Shown here piece after piece: positions 2,306-22,250 of a DNA stretch of 64,000 nt. How positions within the stretch are numbered: the first letter of the stretch is position 1; the number at the start of each line of letters is the position of its first letter. This stretch comes from Arcobacter sp. CECT 8985 (GTDB lineage: Bacteria; Campylobacterota; Campylobacteria; Campylobacterales; Arcobacteraceae). The position numbers were made by a program, and so were the translations under genes. Below the pieces are notes generated by a model that searched no databases, was not told where the DNA came from, and saw only the letters and a program-made list of their open reading frames with translations. The DNA is taken from positions 1 to 64,000 of the forward strand of contig NZ_PDKC01000008.1 of assembly GCF_004116495.1 (NCBI RefSeq), in the 5' to 3' direction.

Positions 2306-3424
2306 TTGAAAATAGTACATTTTAGTGATACACACTTGGGGTTTAGTGATCTAGATATTATAAATGATGAGGGTATTAATCAAAGAGAAGCAGATTTTTA
2401 TAAAGCATTTGATGATATTATCGATGAAATAATTAATTTAAATCCTGATTATATTATACATACGGGTGATTTATTTCATAGGAGTAGTCCTTCTAATAGA
2501 GCAATATCATATGCATTGAAAAAATTTACAATATTAAATGATCTTAATATTCCAATTATTTTAATTGCGGGAAACCATTCAACACCTAGAACTAATTACT
2601 CTTTGCCTATTTTATCTATATTTGATAATTTTAAAAATGTATATTGTGCTTATAGTAGTAAATATGAAATGTTTGAATTTGATAATATTATTTTTCATGC
2701 ATTGCCACATTTAAATGATGAAAATAAAATATATGAAGAATTAGAAAAAATTGAAAAGAATATAAATAAAAATAAAAAAAACATTATGATGCTTCATTGT
2801 AGTGTAGGAGCTTCTTATTTGATGAGCGAGTTTGGAGAGTTTGTTTACCCTCATGACAAAGAATATTTATTTGATAAAATGGATTATGTGGCATTAGGTC
2901 ATTGGCATGGTTTTTCTAGTGTTAAAAGTTATGAAAATGTATTTTATAGTGGAAGTAGTGAACGTACATCTTTAAATGATAAAAGAAGTAATAAAGGGTT
3001 TATATATTTTGATTTATCAAAGGATGATTTGATAGTTGATTTTAAACAAATTAAAATAAGAGACTTTGTAAGTTATGAAATTGATGCAAACGAATTATTT
3101 ATTAAATTAGAAGAGTTAAGTTATTTAAACTTAAAAGATTCAATTGTACAAATTACTATTAAAAATTTAAATGCACTTGATTCTATAAATATTTCAAATA
3201 AACAAATTAAAAGTTATTTTTCATCTTCTTTATATGTTGTTGTTAAAAGAGAGTTTATTTCTACAAATTCTACAACAATAGAAGATATTCAAGCTGTTTC
3301 TTTAAAAGAATATTTTACAGACTTTTTGAAGGACAATTCATTGGAAGATGAATTTTCAAGATTAAAATTGAAAAGTGATGAGTTATTTGATAAATATGAG
3401 GATAATATTGATGATACTATCTAA
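2306..3424 (+). CDS. sbcD: SbcD/Mre11-like metallophosphoesterase (DNA double-strand break nuclease subunit)
   Basis: A 372-aa calcineurin-like phosphoesterase with the metal-binding motifs in order: SDTHLGF (residues 7-13), HTGDLFH, GNHS and GHWHG. The family forms the Mn-dependent nuclease of the SbcCD/Mre11-Rad50 complex, which processes hairpins and DNA ends. It starts at TTG (2306), preceded by GGAAATGAT. The reading frame has no earlier ATG that would retain homology. The 3' end overlaps the SbcC-like gene by 14 bases, which supports translational coupling and a stoichiometric complex. Residues after about 270 are poorly conserved and probably contact the partner ATPase. Confidence 0.85.
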   Translation: MKIVHFSDTHLGFSDLDIINDEGINQREADFYKAFDDIIDEIINLNPDYIIHTGDLFHRSSPSNRAISYALKKFTILNDLNIPIILIAGNHSTPRTNYSLPILSIFDNFKNVYCAYSSKYEMFEFDNIIFHALPHLNDENKIYEELEKIEKNINKNKKNIMMLHCSVGASYLMSEFGEFVYPHDKEYLFDKMDYVALGHWHGFSSVKSYENVFYSGSSERTSLNDKRSNKGFIYFDLSKDDLIVDFKQIKIRDFVSYEIDANELFIKLEELSYLNLKDSIVQITIKNLNALDSINISNKQIKSYFSSSLYVVVKREFISTNSTTIEDIQAVSLKEYFTDFLKDNSLEDEFSRLKLKSDELFDKYEDNIDDTI

Positions 3425-5780
3425 ATTATATTTAAAAAATTTTAAAAAATATGAAGAGTTTGCAATTGAATTTTTTGATGGCTTAACAGGAATTATTGGT
3501 AAAAATGGAAGTGGGAAATCTACTATTTTTGAAGCTATTTTATTTGCTTTATATGGAGAATTAAGAATTAAAGGTTCAAAAGAGTTAATTAAAAATATAA
3601 ATGCAGATGAAAAAGATGAACTAAGAGTTGAGCTTACTTTTGAATTTGATTCTTTTGAATATAAAGTTGTAAGAGAATTTAGAGGAAAAAATTTAACTGC
3701 AAGTGCAAAAATTTTTAAAAATGAACAATTACTTTGTAATGGTTCAAAAGAAGTGACAAAAGAGATAATAAAACTTACTAAAATGAATAAAGAAGCATTC
3801 TTAAGTACACTTTTTGCATCTCAAAAGCAGTTAACTAAATTGAGTAGTTTAGACAAAGAAGAACGAAAAAAAATGATAAGAAGGCTACTTGGTTTAGAAA
3901 AAATTGATTTTATTGAAAATTATTTAATATTACAAATAAGAGAATTAAATAGAGATATAAAAAACTTTTCTTCTTATTTATTGAATATTGAAGATATTGA
4001 TGAGTTTTCAAAAAAGTTAAAAAATCATAATGATAATTTAAAACTAATAAACATTCAAATTGTAAATGAACAAAATAATAAAGAGAAATTATTAAGTGAA
4101 GAGAGTGGTAAAAAAACTCAACTTGAAACTTTTAATAAAGTTAAAGAACAAAAACAAAATTTAGAACATAATATAAAACTTGAAGAGTCAAATTTTAAGT
4201 TAGTATCTGAAAATATAAATAAATTAAATGAAGAATTAAAACAGTTAGAATTAAAAAAAATAGAGTTTGATAATATAAAAGATATAAAAGATAAATATGA
4301 AGGACTTTTATCGTCAATAAAAGAACAAGATTTTTTAAAAGAGAAGTATTTAAAAAAACAAGCTTTGATTAAAGAAAGAGATGAATTAAGATTATCATAT
4401 AAAAAACAAAAAGAGGATATTTCTAATATTCAAGAGCAATTAAAAGATGAAAAGAGTGTAGAAAAACAGCATTTACAATTAAAACATGATATTTCTGATT
4501 TACAAAAACAACTTCAAGATAAAAAGATTACAGATAGAGAATTAAGAGATAAAATTGCTGGACAAGAAAATCTAATTATAGATACAAAAAATAAAATTGA
4601 TACTATTCAAAGTTTAGGACGAAATTCAAAATGTCCAACTTGTACTAGAGATTTGCTTGATGATTATGACATGGTTTTAGAAAATTTATATAATTTAGTT
4701 GAATCAAATTATCAAAAAAATATTGATAATTATAAAATAGAGTTAGAAGAGCTAACTAAAAAAATAGAAATAAAACAAGAAAATCTTGAAAAAGTAATAA
4801 AAGAAGAAAAACAATTACATACTCAAATTTATCTGTTTGAGGAAAAGAAAAAGGATTTAGCAAATAGCTTAAATTATTTACAAGACATAGAGTTAAGAGG
4901 AAAAAGTAATAATGAGCAAATTGAGAAACTAAATTCTTATGTTTATAATGAAAAGAAACATTTACAAATAAAAGAAGAGTTAGAATTAATAAGAAAAGAT
5001 TATGATAAATTTTTGTCTTTACAAACTCAGTTAAAAAGAGAAAATATAATTTTACAAAATATTAAAGAGTTAAATAAAAATAAAGAAATTTATGAAATAA
5101 ATATTAAATTAAGAAAAGATCAATTATTAACAATAAATTATGATGAAAATAAACATATCTCTTTGGAAAAACAAATTGATGATATACAAAAAAGAAAAGA
5201 TGAATTATCAGAAATAATTCATAATAAAAGATTGGAAGAGTCAAGAATAAAAGGTGAAATAAAAAATATTAATAGACAGCTTGAAGAGAATGAACAGAAA
5301 AATAAAAAATTACAGACTAAAATTGATGATTTAAATGATTATACAAAAATTAAAATCGCACTACAAGAATTTAAAACAACAATAAATTCTAAAATTGCTC
5401 CAAGGATTTCACAAATTGCTTCAAATATGTATGCAAAAATTACAAAAGGAAAGTATCAATTAATTGAAGTTTCAAATGATTTTGATTTTTTTATTTTTGA
5501 TGAAAATAAAAAATACCCAATTGAAAGATTTAGTGGAGGAGAGATTGATTTGGCAAATTTAGTATTAAGAATTGCAATCTCAAAAACACTTCAAGAATTA
5601 AGTGGAAATGCTCAGATATCTTTTCTTGCTTTTGATGAAATATTTGGAAGCCAAGATGAAAATAGAAGATTAGAAATACTTGAAGCTTTTAGTACAATAA
5701 AAGAGCAATATAGACAAATATTTTTAATTAGTCATGAATCTGAAATTAAAGAGATGTTTGAACGTGTTATTGAGCTTTAA
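3411..5780 (+). CDS. sbcC: SbcC/Rad50-like ATPase
   Basis: An SMC-family ATPase of 789 aa. Walker A GKNGSGKST lies near residues 30-38, long coiled coils flank a central zinc hook CPTC (Cys408 and Cys411), and the ABC signature FSGGE and Walker B FLAFDE lie in the last 90 residues. With SbcD it forms an ATP-gated DNA-end nuclease. The ATG at 3411 is chosen over upstream ATGs because GAGG stands 9 bases before it and the conserved N-terminus (ILSKLYLKNFKKYE) begins there. It is shorter than E. coli SbcC (over 1000 aa), mainly through shorter coiled coils, as in many Campylobacterota homologues. Confidence 0.85.
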   Translation: MILSKLYLKNFKKYEEFAIEFFDGLTGIIGKNGSGKSTIFEAILFALYGELRIKGSKELIKNINADEKDELRVELTFEFDSFEYKVVREFRGKNLTASAKIFKNEQLLCNGSKEVTKEIIKLTKMNKEAFLSTLFASQKQLTKLSSLDKEERKKMIRRLLGLEKIDFIENYLILQIRELNRDIKNFSSYLLNIEDIDEFSKKLKNHNDNLKLINIQIVNEQNNKEKLLSEESGKKTQLETFNKVKEQKQNLEHNIKLEESNFKLVSENINKLNEELKQLELKKIEFDNIKDIKDKYEGLLSSIKEQDFLKEKYLKKQALIKERDELRLSYKKQKEDISNIQEQLKDEKSVEKQHLQLKHDISDLQKQLQDKKITDRELRDKIAGQENLIIDTKNKIDTIQSLGRNSKCPTCTRDLLDDYDMVLENLYNLVESNYQKNIDNYKIELEELTKKIEIKQENLEKVIKEEKQLHTQIYLFEEKKKDLANSLNYLQDIELRGKSNNEQIEKLNSYVYNEKKHLQIKEELELIRKDYDKFLSLQTQLKRENIILQNIKELNKNKEIYEINIKLRKDQLLTINYDENKHISLEKQIDDIQKRKDELSEIIHNKRLEESRIKGEIKNINRQLEENEQKNKKLQTKIDDLNDYTKIKIALQEFKTTINSKIAPRISQIASNMYAKITKGKYQLIEVSNDFDFFIFDENKKYPIERFSGGEIDLANLVLRIAISKTLQELSGNAQISFLAFDEIFGSQDENRRLEILEAFSTIKEQYRQIFLISHESEIKEMFERVIEL

Positions 5781-5781
5781 A

Positions 5782-5798
5782 GTAGTCTAGAAGACTAC
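5782..5798. terminator. Bidirectional terminator between sbcC and the N-acyl synthase gene
   Basis: GTAGTCT (5782-5788), a 3-base loop, then AGACTAC (5792-5798). The hairpin sits just after the sbcC stop and over the stop of the convergent minus-strand gene. Confidence 0.5.
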
Positions 5799-6553
5799 CT
5801 TAAAAAAGCTTTTTGGAAAAATTTTGAGATTTTTGAAATATCCCATGATGTAATTATAAATATTTTATTTAATTCTCCATATGAAGTTAATTCTTTTTCA
5901 ATATTAAAACCACCAAATTTTGAATATAATTTGTAATGCTCTTTACTTATTACTGAAATTGTCCCATTTATATTATTTTGTTTTATTATTAAATAAATTC
6001 CTTGTGTTAGATTTTTGAAATCAAGGTTAAGACTATTTTTATTATGTTTTATTGTAAGTCTTGAAACTTCAGCAATATTTTTGTATTGTTTTCTAATATA
6101 ATCTAAATCTATCTTTTCTTCTATTGGGAGTTTTCTTTCAGAATCAAAGATTAGTCTACAAGTACTTGTTATTGTATTTTCTGTTTTAGTATATATTATT
6201 GCAGAATTTTTATCATAATTATCAAAGTTAAGCCCTTCAATTATTTCTGGAAATTCTTTATTATAATTTAATTTAGTATATATCTCACTTCTTAGTTTGT
6301 ATACATTAATTAAATCTTCAACACTTTTTATAATAAACAAGTTTTTGTTGTTATTCTCAAAATTTAGATCTTTATTAAACTTAACTGTCTTCTCTACAAC
6401 TTCTTCAAGGAAAAGCCTATTATTAAATAGTTCAAGTGCTTTTAATTGCTGTTCATTAAAGCTTTTTGGCATGTACTCTAAAGAGTTATTTATTTTACTT
6501 TGGATAAGCAACTGCAATTGTTCAATTGATTCGTTTTTGTTTATGTTAAACAT
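5795..6553 (-). CDS. Putative LuxI/FeeM-superfamily N-acyltransferase (N-acyl amino acid or homoserine lactone synthase-like)
   Basis: A 252-aa soluble protein. Residues ~75-230 carry the conserved pattern of acyl-homoserine-lactone synthases and FeeM-type N-acyl amino acid synthases: Arg88 in LRSEIY, an acidic pair Asp111-x2-Asp114, Arg133 in STCRL, and Glu162-Val-Ser-Arg165 (EVSR), with spacings close to LuxI (D45, D48, R69, E101, R104). Such enzymes join an acyl chain from acyl-ACP to an amino compound. The first ~70 residues are an extra helical extension. ATG 6553 follows AAAAAAAAGGG. The gene lies downstream of a histidine kinase and response regulator on the same strand and has its own promoter-like region. 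Product and substrate cannot be told from sequence, and a generic GNAT acyltransferase remains possible. Confidence 0.65.
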   Translation of the reverse strand: MFNINKNESIEQLQLLIQSKINNSLEYMPKSFNEQQLKALELFNNRLFLEEVVEKTVKFNKDLNFENNNKNLFIIKSVEDLINVYKLRSEIYTKLNYNKEFPEIIEGLNFDNYDKNSAIIYTKTENTITSTCRLIFDSERKLPIEEKIDLDYIRKQYKNIAEVSRLTIKHNKNSLNLDFKNLTQGIYLIIKQNNINGTISVISKEHYKLYSKFGGFNIEKELTSYGELNKIFIITSWDISKISKFFQKAFLR

Positions 6554-6575: not shown

Positions 6576-6614
6576 AAAATATAATAAACAAATGTTGTCA
6601 AATAAATCGTCACA
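6576..6614 (-). promoter_or_regulatory. Putative promoter with direct-repeat operator for the N-acyl synthase
   Basis: Reading the minus strand, TGTGAC (6614-6609) and TTTGAC (6602-6597) form a direct repeat with 12-bp phase. The second repeat overlaps a consensus TTGACA (6601-6596). An AT-rich -10-like TATTTT lies at 6581-6576, giving a short leader to the ATG at 6553. The same repeat occurs at 9313-9330, so the neighbouring OmpR-type regulator is a good candidate binder. Confidence 0.4.
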
Positions 6615-6718: not shown

Positions 6719-7405
6719 TTATTTTATATTTAGTCTACAACCAAAAGATTGTATAGTTTCAATTAACTCAGGGTCAATTTTATTTCTTAGTCTGTAAAGT
6801 AAAGTTCGAAGAGAACTATCTGAAACAGTGCTATTTGGCCATATTTCATACTCGATATCCGCAAATTCAATAATATTTCCTTTTGCTGCAATTAGTAATG
6901 AAAATAGTTTTGTTTCTTGTTTGCTGAGTTTTATAAACTTTTCGTTGTAATAGAGGGTATTATTTTTTGTATCGTATTTATAACCATTTTTTAATAACAC
7001 TATATTATTATCTAATTCATTTAAATTATTTAATCTGTTTTTTGCCACTAATAATGCAGGTGCAATGGATTCTCTATTATATGGTTTTGTCAGATAAGTT
7101 GCAACAAAATTTCCATCTATTGCTTTTTGCATTGTTTGTTCATCAGAAAAAGCTGTTAGAAATATTACAGGAGTATATTTTATCTTTTGAATATCTTTTG
7201 CTGCTTCAATTCCATCCTTACTATATTTTCCTAAATCAATGTCCATGATTGCAATATCAGCAGGGTTGTCCTTTTGTGATTTTATAGTTTCTTCATAATT
7301 TGTAACACATTTAGTAACTTCATATCCAAGTGCTTGAACACTTCTTTTTATATCAAACCCAACTATTGTATTATCTTCAAGTATTAATACTTTTGTATTC
7401 TTCAT
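6719..7405 (-). CDS. OmpR-family response regulator
   Basis: A 228-aa regulator. The receiver domain (residues ~4-118) has the acidic pair in LILEDN, phospho-acceptor Asp55 in IMDID, and the conserved Lys in YLTKP. A winged-helix DNA-binding domain (~130-228) follows, with YDTKNNTL and LRTLLYRLRNKI features. GGAGGG precedes the ATG. Its start overlaps the 3' end of the histidine kinase gene by 29 bases, so the two form a cognate pair. OmpR-type regulators bind tandem direct repeats, which fits the TGTGAC repeats upstream of the kinase and of the acyl synthase. Confidence 0.85.
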   Translation of the reverse strand: MKNTKVLILEDNTIVGFDIKRSVQALGYEVTKCVTNYEETIKSQKDNPADIAIMDIDLGKYSKDGIEAAKDIQKIKYTPVIFLTAFSDEQTMQKAIDGNFVATYLTKPYNRESIAPALLVAKNRLNNLNELDNNIVLLKNGYKYDTKNNTLYYNEKFIKLSKQETKLFSLLIAAKGNIIEFADIEYEIWPNSTVSDSSLRTLLYRLRNKIDPELIETIQSFGCRLNIK

Positions 7406-9239
7406 TGTCCCTCCAAATTATTTTAACAGAAACACTATTCTCACTTTCAATAGTTATATTTCCTTTTAATTGATCACAAGCTAAAGTATTTATTAACATT
7501 AATCCAAGTGAGTTAGTTGGTTTTGTTGAATCATATCCTTTTCCATTATCTTCTACAATCAATATATATTTATTATTAACTTTTTTTAATTTTATATCTA
7601 TTTGTCCATTCATTTTATCATCAAATGCATATTTAAATGAATTGGATATAAGTTCATTTATAATTAATCCACAATATATTGCTTCTTCTATTTTTAAGTT
7701 TGTTTCGATTTGGAAATTGATTTTAACATTTTCACAATTATAGCTTTGCATTACTTCATTTACTAAGATTTTAAAATATTTAACAGTATTTACATTTGTT
7801 AAATTATCTTGCTTATATAATAGTTCATGAAGATGTCCCATTGCATTAATTCTATTTTGTATAGTTGTTAATACATCTTTTAATTTTTCATCTATAATAT
7901 CATCACTTTGAAGTCTAATTAATGAAACTATAGTTTGCATATTATTTTTTACTCTATGATTTAATTCTTTTAATAATAGTCCTTTTTCATCTAATGCATT
8001 TTTTAGATCTTTTGTTTTTTCCTCCACTTTCAATTTCAAACGAGCTTTCTCATCTTTTTGTTGTAAAATAAGTTTTTCTTGTGCTTCTTGTTTATCTTTT
8101 TCAAGTATCTTAATTCTATCTGCAAGGGCGATTGAAAAAACTATTGCTTCTATCAATAATGAAATTTCTATATAATAAGGAAAATTTATGAAGACATTAT
8201 ACATACCAATACTAGATAAATACATAAACATTCCAGCAGTTAAAAATATTGACCATCCAAATAAAACAAAATAAGCTTGTCTATTTCTTTTTATACTTGT
8301 ATATATAGTTATTATAACTAGATATATTAATAAAATAACAGAAAAAATATTTCTATATTTGTTAAAACTATCAGTAATAAAAAATATACTTAATAAAAAA
8401 GGAAATAAAATAAGATAAATAGTTAATGTTTTATTTATTATTTTATATTTTTTTATATTTAAGAAACTTTTTGTAAATAATGCTAGTGCAAGAGCAGGGA
8501 ATCCCACAATATATGTCGCATAATGAATAAAAGGCATTACCCAGTTATGTGGTAAAAAATAGATATTAGTAACACCTGAATACATAAGATGATGAATTAA
8601 AATACCAAATATATATAATACATAATATAAATAACTTCTATCTTTTGTAAAGAAAAAGATAAATAAATTATAAAAACCAAGAATAGACATACCACCAAAA
8701 AATAAAGCTAAAATAACTTGATGTTGCATCTCTTTTATGTAGAAGTTTTCACTATTAAATAAGTTTAATTTTATTATTAACGTAGTTATATAAGATGAGG
8801 CTTTAATATAATAAGTTTTTTTTTCTTTTGGTTTTAATAAAATATTAAATATAGGATTAATTGTTTTTCTATTTTCACTTAAATGTGCAAGTCCTTCTTT
8901 TTTTAATAGTTTATTATTACTATATAGATATACATTTGTTGTTAGTGCATTATCATATTCCAAAATTTTATTTATTGTGTTTTTTGTATTATTTTTTAGT
9001 GTAAATTTAATCCATACATTAAAATTAGGAGAATAACCAAAACCAATAGATTTACTATTTATTTTTTTAAATTTAACTTTTTTAACATTTTTAATTGTTA
9101 ATTTTTTTGTTTTATCAATAAATATTTCACTTTGAGGAAAAATATTATAAAAATTAGTTTTTTTATTAATTGAGATTATATTCGCAAGTAAATTTAAATT
9201 AAGTATTACAAGTAATAAAATAAGTTTTCGTATAAACAT
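7377..9239 (-). CDS. 7TM-DISM sensor histidine kinase (HisKA_2 type)
   Basis: A 620-aa sensor kinase. A signal peptide is followed by a periplasmic 7TMR-DISMED2-like domain (~25-165), seven membrane helices (~175-380), a short coiled coil, then a HisKA_2 dimerisation domain with the phospho-accepting His428 in ELNHRVKNNMQ. The HATPase domain has NELISNSFKYAF, DNGKGYD and SLGLMLI. DISM receptors are thought to sense small ligands, often carbohydrates or other metabolites. It is paired with the overlapping OmpR-family regulator. Its upstream region faces a divergent orphan gene and contains direct repeats. Confidence 0.85.
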   Translation of the reverse strand: MFIRKLILLLVILNLNLLANIISINKKTNFYNIFPQSEIFIDKTKKLTIKNVKKVKFKKINSKSIGFGYSPNFNVWIKFTLKNNTKNTINKILEYDNALTTNVYLYSNNKLLKKEGLAHLSENRKTINPIFNILLKPKEKKTYYIKASSYITTLIIKLNLFNSENFYIKEMQHQVILALFFGGMSILGFYNLFIFFFTKDRSYLYYVLYIFGILIHHLMYSGVTNIYFLPHNWVMPFIHYATYIVGFPALALALFTKSFLNIKKYKIINKTLTIYLILFPFLLSIFFITDSFNKYRNIFSVILLIYLVIITIYTSIKRNRQAYFVLFGWSIFLTAGMFMYLSSIGMYNVFINFPYYIEISLLIEAIVFSIALADRIKILEKDKQEAQEKLILQQKDEKARLKLKVEEKTKDLKNALDEKGLLLKELNHRVKNNMQTIVSLIRLQSDDIIDEKLKDVLTTIQNRINAMGHLHELLYKQDNLTNVNTVKYFKILVNEVMQSYNCENVKINFQIETNLKIEEAIYCGLIINELISNSFKYAFDDKMNGQIDIKLKKVNNKYILIVEDNGKGYDSTKPTNSLGLMLINTLACDQLKGNITIESENSVSVKIIWRDNEEYKSINT

Positions 9240-9312: not shown

Positions 9313-9351
9313 TGTGACGCAAAGTGTGACACCGAAGTGTTATTATATAAT
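9313..9351 (+). promoter_or_regulatory. Direct-repeat operator and promoter between the kinase and the divergent 258-aa gene
   Basis: TGTGAC at 9313-9318 and again at 9325-9330 (12-bp phase), followed by a degenerate third copy TGTTAT at 9338-9343. A perfect TATAAT lies at 9346-9351, 15 bases after the second repeat. The repeats cover the -35 area of a + strand promoter, the layout expected for activation by an OmpR-type regulator. A perfect inverted repeat GATAGAC-TTG-GTCTATC (9384-9400) lies in the leader. Confidence 0.5.
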
Positions 9352-9429
9352 AATTAAATGTCAATTAGTATACTGGATGTATAGATAGACTTGGTCTATC
9401 CTTTATTGTCTTTGATATTAAGGAATATT

Positions 9430-10206
9430 ATGAGTTTAAATGAAATAATAGAAAATTGTATTAAAATTTTTAATTTTAATGTTAAAAGTGAATTTCAAAA
9501 ATTATTAGAAGTTCAAGTTGTGTCAGTTAAAAAAGATAATTTCTTTAATAAAAACAATAATTTAATAGTAAAGCATTCTTCAGAAGGGTCTATATATATT
9601 AGTGAATGTAAAATTGAATTGACAAAAATAGATGATTTTGAAAAATCTTCTATAATAAATATTTTAGATATATCAAAAGTTATTAAATTGAAAAATGACT
9701 TTTTACAACTAAAAAAAATGGTTCCAGTTTTAATTCCAATAAATTTATGTGTTGCAAGAGTTTATGAATCTAATCCTCATAATTCTTCTTTGGCAGATAT
9801 TTTAATTGTTGATACAATCTCTTTATTATCATATCTTGAAAAAAATATTATTGATGAAGATTTAATTATTACGACTGATTTTTTGGATAAAAATAATATT
9901 TCTTATAAATATTTTAAAACAGGAAATCAAAAAGAAAAAATGCTTTTAGAAAATACTTTTATTTTATATGAAAGTCAAAATAAAAATGAAAGTGAAATTT
10001 CTCAAATGCAAAATTTTATAATTGATGCAGAACTTTCAAATTTAGGTAATTTTGTTGAAATGTTATATTATAATTCTGAAAATAATTATTGTATATTGGA
10101 AATTTGTGACAATTATGATAAACAAATATTGAATCAAATAAAACAAATTGCAAAAAAGAATATCAATAGATATTTTATTTTAAATAATGGATCAGAAGTA
10201 GCATAA
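9430..10206 (+). CDS. Hypothetical protein, 258 aa
   Basis: I do not recognise this cytoplasmic protein: no signal peptide, no membrane helices, no clear motif, Asn/Ile/Lys-rich. ATG 9430 is preferred because AAGGA (9420-9424) is ideally placed; an in-frame TTG at 9391 lies inside an inverted repeat and lacks a ribosome-binding site. It is divergent from the histidine kinase. Its promoter has the same TGTGAC direct repeats as the acyl-synthase promoter, so it may be a target of that two-component system. That link is an inference. Confidence 0.7.
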   Translation: MSLNEIIENCIKIFNFNVKSEFQKLLEVQVVSVKKDNFFNKNNNLIVKHSSEGSIYISECKIELTKIDDFEKSSIINILDISKVIKLKNDFLQLKKMVPVLIPINLCVARVYESNPHNSSLADILIVDTISLLSYLEKNIIDEDLIITTDFLDKNNISYKYFKTGNQKEKMLLENTFILYESQNKNESEISQMQNFIIDAELSNLGNFVEMLYYNSENNYCILEICDNYDKQILNQIKQIAKKNINRYFILNNGSEVA

Positions 10207-19136: not shown

Positions 19137-19934
19137 TTGAATGAAATTGATTTAGTAAGAGTTAGTTTAAGGGATTTTTTAACTAAACAAATGTTGAAAT
19201 ACTCGATTGTTCCTTTACTTGTAACATTAATTATTATGTTTGCTATATTTTTTAGTACAGCAAGTTATGGTATGGATTCTTTATCAATAATGATCACTCA
19301 AGTACAAAATGGACAGGATGTTGTAGTTTCTCCTGATGCACCCTTTTATTATTCATGGATGAATTTTTTACTACAATACTCAGTTACAGCTTGGATAGTT
19401 AGTTTTTTAGTTTATACTATAGGTATAGTTTTTATTATGATGTTTTCTGTATTTATTACACTTGCAATTATTGGTTTTTTAACTCCATTTATATTAAATA
19501 CTTTACATAAAAGACATTATAGTGATTTACCAATGCAAGGATATGGAAGTTTAATGTCTCCACTATTTGTACTTATAAAAAGTACATTATTTATGATATT
19601 GCTTTTTTTTATTTTAATTCCCTTATATTTTATTCCCATATTAAATATAATTGCATTTAACTTGCCATTGTATTATTTTTTTCATAAGTTGTTAAATCAT
19701 GATGTATCATCAACAATATTAAATGAACAAGATTATAAAATAATTCATAAAAGTGAAAAAAATAGTTTTAGAATAAGAACATTTTTACTTTATATGTTAT
19801 CGATGGTTCCTTTTATTACTCTATTTTCAGCAGTATTTTTTATAATATATTTAGGTCATGGATATTTTATTGAGTTAAGAAAATTAAAACAAGGAGAAGC
19901 TTGCGCTATAGATAAGTTCTTAGAACTTAAATAA
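19137..19934 (+). CDS. EI24/CysZ-like membrane protein
   Basis: A 265-aa inner-membrane protein with about five hydrophobic segments (residues ~20-45, 75-105, 110-125, 145-175 and 220-245). The pattern LPLYYFFHKLLNHDVSS and the general layout match EI24-domain proteins of Campylobacterota; function is unknown. It starts at TTG 19137 behind AAGGA with a 6-base spacer. It is co-directional with the radical SAM gene and ends by overlapping the convergent response regulator gene by 8 bases. Confidence 0.75.
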   Translation: MNEIDLVRVSLRDFLTKQMLKYSIVPLLVTLIIMFAIFFSTASYGMDSLSIMITQVQNGQDVVVSPDAPFYYSWMNFLLQYSVTAWIVSFLVYTIGIVFIMMFSVFITLAIIGFLTPFILNTLHKRHYSDLPMQGYGSLMSPLFVLIKSTLFMILLFFILIPLYFIPILNIIAFNLPLYYFFHKLLNHDVSSTILNEQDYKIIHKSEKNSFRIRTFLLYMLSMVPFITLFSAVFFIIYLGHGYFIELRKLKQGEACAIDKFLELK

Positions 19935-19946
19935 CTAATCTATAGC
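19905..19946. terminator. Nested inverted repeat over the convergent gene ends
   Basis: Outer arms GCTATAGAT (19905-19913) and ATCTATAGC (19938-19946) enclose an inner hairpin AAGTTC-TTA-GAACTT (19914-19928). It spans both stop codons and probably terminates transcription in both directions. Confidence 0.5.
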
Positions 19947-20610
19947 CTGTACCTTGGATATTTTTTAATATACCATTTGGAAGTTTTTTTCTAAAATTTT
20001 TAATAAATAGTCTCATTGCATTTGGAGTCATGATATTAGTATCATCCCAAATCTGAGTCTCTAATTCTTGATATGTAATAATTCTATTTTTATTTATAAG
20101 AAGTTTTAAAAATGCATTTTCTTTTTTAGTTAAAATATATTCAACATCAGGACCGATTACGCAAGATTTACTTTCATCATAAATCCATTTAGGAATAAGG
20201 TTGTAAACTGGTGCAGTTGCATAACTTTTAATAAAAGCCTCAAGTGCTTCTGTTAATTTCGCTTCAGTTATTGGTTTTATAATATATTTTACTAAATGTA
20301 ATTCAGTTGCTTCTAACATATACTCTAAATCAGTATGTGCTGAAGTAATAATAACTCTAACTTTTGAGTCAGTTTTTCTAACTCTTTTTATTAAATCAAT
20401 ACCTGTTTCTTTTGGCATTCTTATATCTGTGATTATTAAATCTGGTTTTTTTTCTTGATAAATTTTAAATGCATCTTTTGCATTTTTTGCTAAATATAAA
20501 TTTTTGAACATATGTTTTAGAATTTCATAGATATTATTCCTAATCCCATCTTCATCTTCAACATATAATAAATTGAAACTACTTAATTGTTTAATTAAGT
20601 CTTGATTCAT
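19927..20610 (-). CDS. OmpR-family response regulator
   Basis: A 227-aa regulator with a receiver domain (LYVEDED acidic cluster, phospho-Asp in IITDIRMP, Lys in YIIKP) and a C-terminal winged helix ending NIQGTGYRLVI. ATG 20610 is preferred over upstream in-frame ATGs because AAGGA stands 7 bases before it. It is divergent from the Cache histidine kinase at 20640 with only 29 bases between the starts, so the two share a regulatory region and are likely a cognate pair. It resembles the regulator at 22985 in the receiver (SAHTD-EY motif), pointing to a duplicated system. Confidence 0.85.
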   Translation of the reverse strand: MNQDLIKQLSSFNLLYVEDEDGIRNNIYEILKHMFKNLYLAKNAKDAFKIYQEKKPDLIITDIRMPKETGIDLIKRVRKTDSKVRVIITSAHTDLEYMLEATELHLVKYIIKPITEAKLTEALEAFIKSYATAPVYNLIPKWIYDESKSCVIGPDVEYILTKKENAFLKLLINKNRIITYQELETQIWDDTNIMTPNAMRLFIKNFRKKLPNGILKNIQGTGYRLVI

Positions 20611-20639
20611 AGTAAAATCCTTATTAGAAAAGATATGGT

Positions 20640-22250
20640 ATGATACCAAAAAATAACCTAAGCAAAGATAAACAATTTAAAGGCTGGATAAGTAAATTGC
20701 AATTAATAACAGAAAAAAACATTTCAAAAATGATTATTTATATTTTTATTATTATTATGTCTTCAATGATTTTTATGATTTCATATTTTTATGTTCAAAA
20801 CACAAATAATAATTTTGAAAAAGAGATGCAAAAATATATTCATGAATATTACAATAATCAAAGAGCTATATTAAAAAAAGAGGTTGATACTGTTATTGAT
20901 ATTTTAAATTATAATCTTACAAAAGATAATATGACTCAGCATGAGCTAAAAGAAGATGCAATTAGATTATTAAATAACATCTCATTTCAAGCAAAAAAAA
21001 GTGATTATTTTTTTGTTTATGAGATTAAAAAAATGCAGGGTGGAAAAGATTTTGCAAGACTAGTAGTAAATCCAAACCGTCCAGATTTATTAGGTAAATT
21101 AATCTCAACAGATTATAAAGATCAAAATGGAAAAAAATTTCGTGAAGAGTTTATGAAAGATATAAGAAAAAAAGGTGAATCTTTTAAATTGTATGCATAT
21201 AAAAAACCAAATTCAGATGATGTAAAAGAAAAATTATCTTTTTTTAAATATTATAAACATTGGAATTGGGTTATTTCAATTGGTGTTTATACAGATGATA
21301 TAGAAAAACAAATTGCTTTAAAACAAAATACTTTGAAACAAAGAGTAAAAAAACAAGTTATTCAAAATATTTTACTTTTTTTACTTTTTTTAACAATAGC
21401 AATTGTTATTTCTATTTTAATATCTGAGAAAATAGATAATGTATTACAAACATATCAAGCAAAAGTAAAAGCAAAATCTGATGAACTTATGCTGTTAAAT
21501 GAGAATCTAGAAAAGAGAGTCTCTTTAGAAATTGATAAAAATAGAGAACAAGAACAGTTACTTGTTCAAAAATCTAGGTTTATAGCCTTAGGGGAAATGA
21601 TATCAAATATAGCACATCAATGGAGACAACCTCTTTCTGAACTTTCATCTATTTTTATGTTTATCAAATTTAAATATAATTTAAATGCCTTAGATAAAGA
21701 AACAATGGATCAAAAATCATTAGAAGCTGAGAAAGTATTGGAGTATATGTCACATACTATTGATGATTTTAGAAATTTCTTTATGCCTAAAAAGGATAAA
21801 GAGAAATTTAAGTTAAATCAAGCAATTGAATCAGTAATGACTATATTATCAAGTGCATTAAAAAATAATTATATAAAAATAGATATAAATATTGATGAAA
21901 ATATTGAAGTTGATACTTATTTAAATGAGTTTGAACAAGTTGTCTTAAATATCATTTCAAATGCAAAAGATGTATTAATTTATAATCAAATAAAAAAACC
22001 ATTTATAAAAATTTATGCAAAAAATAATAAAAATAGTGTAAATTTATATATTGAAGATAATGGAAGTGGAATAGAAGCTAAACCTATTGAGAAAATATTT
22101 GAGCCATACTTTACAACAAAAAATGATAGTGATGGTACAGGTATTGGACTTTATATGTCAAAGATTATTGTAGAAAAGAATATGAAGGGTAAATTGAAAG
22201 TTGAAAATACGATTAATGGGGCAAGATTTGAGATAGTTATTCCAATATAA
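20640..22250 (+). CDS. Cache-domain sensor histidine kinase
   Basis: A 536-aa membrane kinase. Helix ~31-53, a periplasmic single Cache domain (~55-230, with SDYFFVYEI, VVNPNRPDLLGK and WNWVISIGVYTDDIEKQI), helix ~240-260, coiled coil, then a dimerisation domain with His326 in NIAHQWRQPLSEL. The HATPase motifs are NAKDV, EDNGSGI and GTGIGLYMSKII. The AHQWRQPL style is characteristic of Campylobacterota kinases. Such Cache domains bind small organic acids or amino acids. It is divergent from the OmpR-type regulator; the ribosome-binding site at 20640 is weak. Confidence 0.85.
   Translation: MIPKNNLSKDKQFKGWISKLQLITEKNISKMIIYIFIIIMSSMIFMISYFYVQNTNNNFEKEMQKYIHEYYNNQRAILKKEVDTVIDILNYNLTKDNMTQHELKEDAIRLLNNISFQAKKSDYFFVYEIKKMQGGKDFARLVVNPNRPDLLGKLISTDYKDQNGKKFREEFMKDIRKKGESFKLYAYKKPNSDDVKEKLSFFKYYKHWNWVISIGVYTDDIEKQIALKQNTLKQRVKKQVIQNILLFLLFLTIAIVISILISEKIDNVLQTYQAKVKAKSDELMLLNENLEKRVSLEIDKNREQEQLLVQKSRFIALGEMISNIAHQWRQPLSELSSIFMFIKFKYNLNALDKETMDQKSLEAEKVLEYMSHTIDDFRNFFMPKKDKEKFKLNQAIESVMTILSSALKNNYIKIDINIDENIEVDTYLNEFEQVVLNIISNAKDVLIYNQIKKPFIKIYAKNNKNSVNLYIEDNGSGIEAKPIEKIFEPYFTTKNDSDGTGIGLYMSKIIVEKNMKGKLKVENTINGARFEIVIPI

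Follow-up and report, generated by a model that had tools for sequence, protein, structure and literature searches.

To our knowledge, the Campylobacterota lack a well-established acyl-type signal pathway, and the question raised by this locus of Arcobacter sp. CECT 8985 is whether a candidate signal synthase encoded beside a sensor kinase and a response regulator could be the source of one. The window is a stretch of 64,000 nucleotides (contig NZ_PDKC01000008.1, positions 1 to 64,000, forward strand), and the initial annotation had described one of its genes as LuxI/FeeM-like and proposed that an N-acyl product is sensed by the neighbouring kinase. Our results suggest that the following three genes form a module of Arcobacter-like bacteria that resembles a chemical signalling circuit not described before.

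5795..6553, reverse strand: feeM-like N-acyltransferase ORF (252 aa, ATG start; GNAT/FeeM/LuxI fold at about residues 69-252)
6719..7405, reverse strand: OmpR/PhoB-type response regulator (228 aa; Response_reg and Trans_reg_C; recognition helix SLRTLLYRLRNK)
7377..9239, reverse strand: 7TMR-DISM histidine kinase (620 aa; 7TMR-DISM_7TM, DISMED2 and HisKA_2), overlapping the regulator gene

The synthase label had been based on a set of charged residues, Arg88, Asp111, Asp114, Arg133, Glu162 and Arg165. These lie at the positions given for them and, together with Ser164, are invariant in 22/22 intact homologues from several Campylobacterales families (40-76% identity to the window synthase), so the pattern is not due to chance. 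Profile-profile alignment of the synthase family with eight annotated LuxI/TraI proteins paired R88/R25, D111/D46, D114/D49, R133/R70, E162/E101 and R165/R104, all six positions being invariant in the eight-member set, and all six catalytic charges of LuxI (R24/R25, D45/D46, D48/D49, R68/R70, E97/E101, R100/R104) are present in the synthase. hhalign of the family against LuxI gave 87% probability. The LuxI-invariant tryptophan near the active site (W33/W35) is not kept, since Trp35 aligns with synthase Tyr97, and LuxI Phe29 aligns with Tyr92.

Family scores point to FeeM. The synthase scored 63.2 bits against Pfam FeeM (PF21926), above the curated cut-off of 27 (3.2e-17), and this profile matched 22/22 homologues, whereas Autoind_synth (LuxI, PF00765) gave 13.5 bits, under its cut-off of 24, and matched just 7/22 homologues at E <= 1. 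TIGR03694 and Acetyltransf_5 scores were likewise under their cut-offs. A domain related to the exosortase-linked acyltransferase family is present at 34.6 bits, but this is far under the cut-off of 111.95, and no exosortase was seen beside the synthase. A profile of the synthase family ranked FeeM 2G0B first among PDB sequences (E 3.2e-4), while phmmer with the single synthase sequence gave only chance-level PDB matches. Scanning genome contigs with the single protein returned nothing and an alignment-based scan found relatives; a scan of viral contigs found no relative. Among the named carriers are Malaciobacter halophilus, Aliarcobacter MAGs, Sulfurospirillum arcachonense and a Nitratifractor MAG.

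The predicted structure (AlphaFold2, mean pLDDT 87.8) gave the same order. Foldseek placed FeeM 2g0b first (6e-9), followed by LasI and BjaI, and by VIA Z score FeeM was again the best match (18.2, rmsd 2.8 over 170 residues), ahead of RpaI (17.6), LasI (16.9), BjaI (16.8) and TofI (15.8), with MesI also among these AHL-synthase matches (15.8-17.6). Generic GNATs reached at most 15.7, the value of SACOL1063, which aligned over 144 residues vs about 170 for the FeeM and LuxI structures. The comparison with LuxI, LasI and FeeM proposed in the initial annotation therefore returned FeeM best and AHL synthases next, and not a predicted fold lacking the acyl-ACP groove. Residues 1-68 form a helical extension outside the region covered by the structural matches. 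The LasI site is E101-L-S-R104 and that of FeeM is E94-V-V-Q97 (PMC9654057); the E-x-S-R site of the synthase resembles the former and not the latter. The synthase shares with FeeM the family score, the closest fold and the active-site Glu, but its Arg133, Ser164 and Arg165 align with Ser, Val and Gln of 2G0B, it has the additional N-terminal helical part, and it adjoins a kinase and a regulator whereas FeeM lies in a biosynthetic cluster. With LuxI, LasI and BjaI it shares the fold and all six charged catalytic residues, but it falls under their family cut-off, carries Tyr for the conserved Trp and sits in a module without a LuxR partner. Given the Pfam match and the LasI-like site, the precise statement is that the protein, as judged from its sequence and model, is a FeeM-family enzyme with LuxI-like catalytic charges: the FeeM part of the original label stands, and the LuxI part holds for the charges and not for formal family membership.

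The two neighbouring genes have the domains attributed to them by the initial annotation. The kinase consists of a RetS-like DISMED2 periplasmic domain, a 7TM region and a HisKA_2/HWE-type core, similar to that of LOV-type HisKA_2/HWE kinases, with an invariant N427-H428-R429. Its periplasmic domain superposes on that of RetS with Z 15.5 and rmsd 2.1 over 130 residues. This type of fold is associated with sugar sensing and not with acyl ligands, so the ligand of the kinase could be non-acyl. The phospho-acceptor of the regulator is probably Asp55. The window also encodes, at 19927-20649 (reverse strand), a paralogue of this regulator from the same family, whose recognition helix, MRLFIKNFRKK, is clearly different.

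The association of these genes is stronger than adjacency. Among 81 Arcobacteraceae genomes, a kinase orthologue (at least 390 bits) was found in 35 and the synthase in 32, with the kinase present in 32/32 synthase-positive genomes; 46 genomes had neither and three had the kinase only (Fisher p = 1.8e-19, kinship ignored). The synthase adjoins the same kinase-regulator pair in 22/23 of the first loci, where the other flanks mostly differ and orientation varies, and broader locus sampling was consistent with this arrangement. In the exception, S. arcachonense, kinase and synthase share a contig at a distance of 32 kb, and the box is still present in the promoter of the synthase. Synthase and kinase distances are correlated (r = 0.78), and the loci examined showed no ACP, exosortase or export gene recurring next to the synthase. 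Co-inheritance, retention in rearranged contexts and the probable regulator box at the synthase promoter indicate, on comparative genomic grounds, that the kinase and regulator are real partners of the synthase, which is thereby genetically coupled to a dedicated membrane kinase, as in a LuxM/LuxN-type system.

The module also occurs on plasmids and is sometimes incomplete. It is plasmid-borne in Aliarcobacter cryaerophilus (pACRY43158, pCNAC48, pM830MA), the synthase also occurs on an A. faecis plasmid, and on these plasmids the synthase is annotated as hypothetical. On pACRY43158, a Qat anti-phage gene, a dGTPase, a DUF2779 protein and an AAA protein are encoded close to the module (L171), and on pCNAC48 the macrolide-resistance genes mef(A) and msr(D) directly adjoin it together with transposases (L172, 7554-11927). 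Genome G373 has a broken synthase and pM830MA a split one, and the synthase is absent from G030, G322 and G008, which retain the kinase gene; in G008 the regulator is truncated too. The kinase may therefore have another role. Loss of the synthase with the kinase kept fits the loss of a costly or social signal, and other causes are possible.

Several variants of the locus were also seen. In several genera (L035, L038, L039, L041, L042, L056, L058 and L066), the gene directly after the synthase encodes a second regulator whose recognition helix is of the same type, and in G296 and G369 this second gene is preceded by a box. More distant FeeM-like proteins (E ~1e-8 to 1e-11) occur in other Campylobacterales families (L106-L113), where in several genomes their genes adjoin genes of about 650, 181 and 700 aa and are not accompanied by the kinase; they are possibly a separate FeeM subfamily.

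The link between regulator and synthase comes from the promoter, for which the following elements are proposed.

6597..6614, reverse strand: proposed regulator box of the feeM promoter, TGTGAC-GATTTA-TTTGAC, a direct repeat of 12-bp period with the same architecture at orthologous promoters across families
6581..6586, reverse strand: -10-like element TATTAT of the feeM promoter, exactly 10 nt downstream of the box

Most synthase promoters carry TGTGAC-N6-TGTGAC as a direct repeat, with a TAnnnT -10 element exactly 10 nt downstream of it, a combination found in 39/52 of them (25 exact and 14 near) vs 0/378 control promoters. By position-weight score the box of the window itself is weak (14.4 vs a training minimum of 26.6, with 1/20 shuffles scoring higher), and it is accepted for its orthologous position and spacing and not for its own score. 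The core pattern was present in 33/34 synthase-positive vs 15/40 synthase-negative genomes (p = 2.3e-8, kinship ignored), and of 85 further sites none lay inside a gene and 82 had TAnnnT at exactly +10. The recognition helix reads RTLxYRxR in 31/31 loci with the box and is substituted in 11/15 loci without it (covariation p = 1e-7, kinship ignored), so that across the loci compared, loss of the predicted box tracks substitutions in the recognition helix. For example, the A. cryaerophilus and A. faecis plasmids have the helix LMHRTTSK and promoters with an 11-bp-spaced variant. Promoter counts, site geometry and this covariation make it likely that the regulator acts on the synthase gene, which would provide the wiring of an autoinduction loop. 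PhoB boxes and sites of OmpR-family activators are direct repeats, and the box resembles them as a tandem repeat 10 nt upstream of the -10 element that overlaps the -35 region, but differs in its 12-bp period and its TGTGACGC repeat unit. In one genome, G548 (86% complete), there are 10 consensus boxes together with a canonical regulator gene (L259, 4039-4734; site at 5001), and neither synthase nor kinase was found in it, reflecting either a missing contig or a solo regulator.

Besides the feeM promoter, the genome of the window has only one other good box site.

9313..9330, forward strand: second box, near-consensus TGTGACGCAAAGTGTGAC, between the kinase gene and a divergent gene
9341..9346, forward strand: -10-like element TATTAT, 10 nt after the second box, towards the divergent gene
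9430..10206, forward strand: likely target gene of the second box, encoding a protein without a Pfam match; the ORF opens at 9391

Relatives of the encoded protein start at the equivalent of 9430 (MS-NE). The second box was considered as a driver of the kinase operon, and this was rejected because a box lying close to the kinase is usually directed away from it, and most frequently at a divergent gene. Box targets in relatives vary by genome and include HamA, OLD, SIR2, IetA, Lamassu-type LmuA, TIR, SbcD and DUF2779 proteins, as well as ShlB-type transporters, a diguanylate cyclase, a Tle1-type phospholipase, pseudopilins and many membrane proteins or lipoproteins. The known or candidate anti-phage genes downstream of a box, which comprise HamA, OLD, SIR2, SIR2-TPR, TIR, LmuA and IetA, are found at L185:1098-1976(-), L194:257-1951(-), L202:2406-3581(+), L223:307-1968(-), L226:2108-2911(+), L243:691-1704(-) and L260:786-1946(-). 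In addition, an SbcD/SbcC-like nuclease pair (window 2306-3424 and 3375-5780, forward strand) abuts the synthase in Malaciobacter and S. arcachonense (L036), an SbcD gene has a box in its promoter in G395, G534 and G526, and pM830MA carries SbcCD and the module on one plasmid. Clear PADLOC defence families accounted for 5/76 box targets, against 2/99 random genes, from generic families (E ~1e-20), and this enrichment is not significant; the first control had used neighbouring genes, themselves defence-rich. Over-representation of defence genes among the targets is suggestive.

The reading that we somewhat favour is a three-gene autoinducing N-acyl-signal circuit with positive feedback. The FeeM-family enzyme would transfer a fatty acyl group, with acyl-ACP as the probable donor, onto the amine of an amino-acid-like acceptor, and the product would be an amphiphilic N-acyl molecule. 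The co-inherited 7TM-DISM kinase would read this molecule, or a state caused by it, at the envelope and, as its domains suggest, phosphorylate the adjacent OmpR-type regulator. The latter is predicted to bind TGTGAC-N6-TGTGAC at about -40 to -23 in the fashion of a PhoB box, and may thereby activate the synthase gene and a small genome-specific accessory set; in the window, two promoters would be under its control, one belonging to the synthase gene and the other to the divergent gene at 9430-10206. A wider proposal, which we consider speculative and on balance unlikely, is that this is a mobile N-acyl autoinducing circuit of Campylobacterota, read by a 7TM-DISM kinase, and that different species have recruited its PhoB-like box to the promoters of different anti-phage and competition genes (HamA, IetA, Lamassu-type LmuA, OLD, SIR2, TIR and SbcCD), so that a diffusible lipid-like signal would set the defence state of the population.

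Other products of FeeM-type enzymes are surfactants, antibiotics and lipids, which counts against the circuit. Its strongest rival is that the two-component system controls a FeeM-type enzyme making an effector, such as a membrane aminolipid, a surfactant or an antibiotic-like N-acyl amino acid, while the kinase senses glycans, envelope stress or another unrelated cue and no signal loop exists. We hold this to be a real possibility of roughly one chance in three. In its favour are the RetS-like sensor domain, the boxes upstream of membrane protein and lipoprotein genes, and a planctomycete that has N-acyl amino acid synthases and makes N-acyl tyrosines altering biofilm communities (PMC7293339). 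However, the enzyme has a kinase-regulator pair of its own and no recurring ACP, exosortase or export partner, the synthase gene has its box in common with many unrelated genes, as a signal regulon would, and the kinase gene persists in three genomes that lack the enzyme.

Quite improbable, in our judgement, is a genuine AHL synthase that uses S-adenosylmethionine and is paired with a kinase in place of LuxR, in the style of LuxM-LuxN or AinS-AinR. The six LuxI-like charges, the LasI-type E-x-S-R site (E101-S103-R104 in LasI; PMC9654057) and the hhalign probability speak for it, but the Autoind_synth score below cut-off and the replacement of Trp35 and Phe29 by Tyr97 and Tyr92 do not. As for an ordinary acetyl-CoA-dependent GNAT acetyltransferase, the fold is common to many such enzymes and SACOL1063 comes close in Z score, but FeeM and LuxI structures top both rankings with longer alignments, the FeeM Pfam score is far over its cut-off and the synthase-type catalytic charges are fixed, and we regard this explanation as very improbable.

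The circuit that we favour has organizational parallels. In LuxM-LuxN, AinS-AinR, CqsA-CqsS and LqsA-LqsS, a signal synthase is encoded beside a membrane histidine kinase, and the arcobacter module shares this layout. However, those synthases are of types unrelated to the FeeM-family enzyme, and the module encodes a DNA-binding regulator and a 7TM-DISM sensor and has a probable box in the synthase promoter. Relative to LuxM/LuxN and AinS/AinR, the synthase class, the receptor class, the phylum and a defined DNA box are new. No prior description of the synthase-kinase-regulator module was found in the open-access literature searched; a passage of one report lists the kinase and regulator of pM830MA and leaves the synthase unnamed (PMC6690266).

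If the circuit is true, the Campylobacterota would have an acyl-type signal pathway with every component named, and cell-cell signalling a new synthase-receptor combination. The family of 7TM-DISM kinases would gain a candidate lipid-like ligand, and the DNA box would allow the regulon to be predicted and a reporter assay to be run in one step. Since the module occurs on plasmids, next to phage-defence genes or upstream of them, a connection of signalling with immunity in these bacteria would be directly testable.
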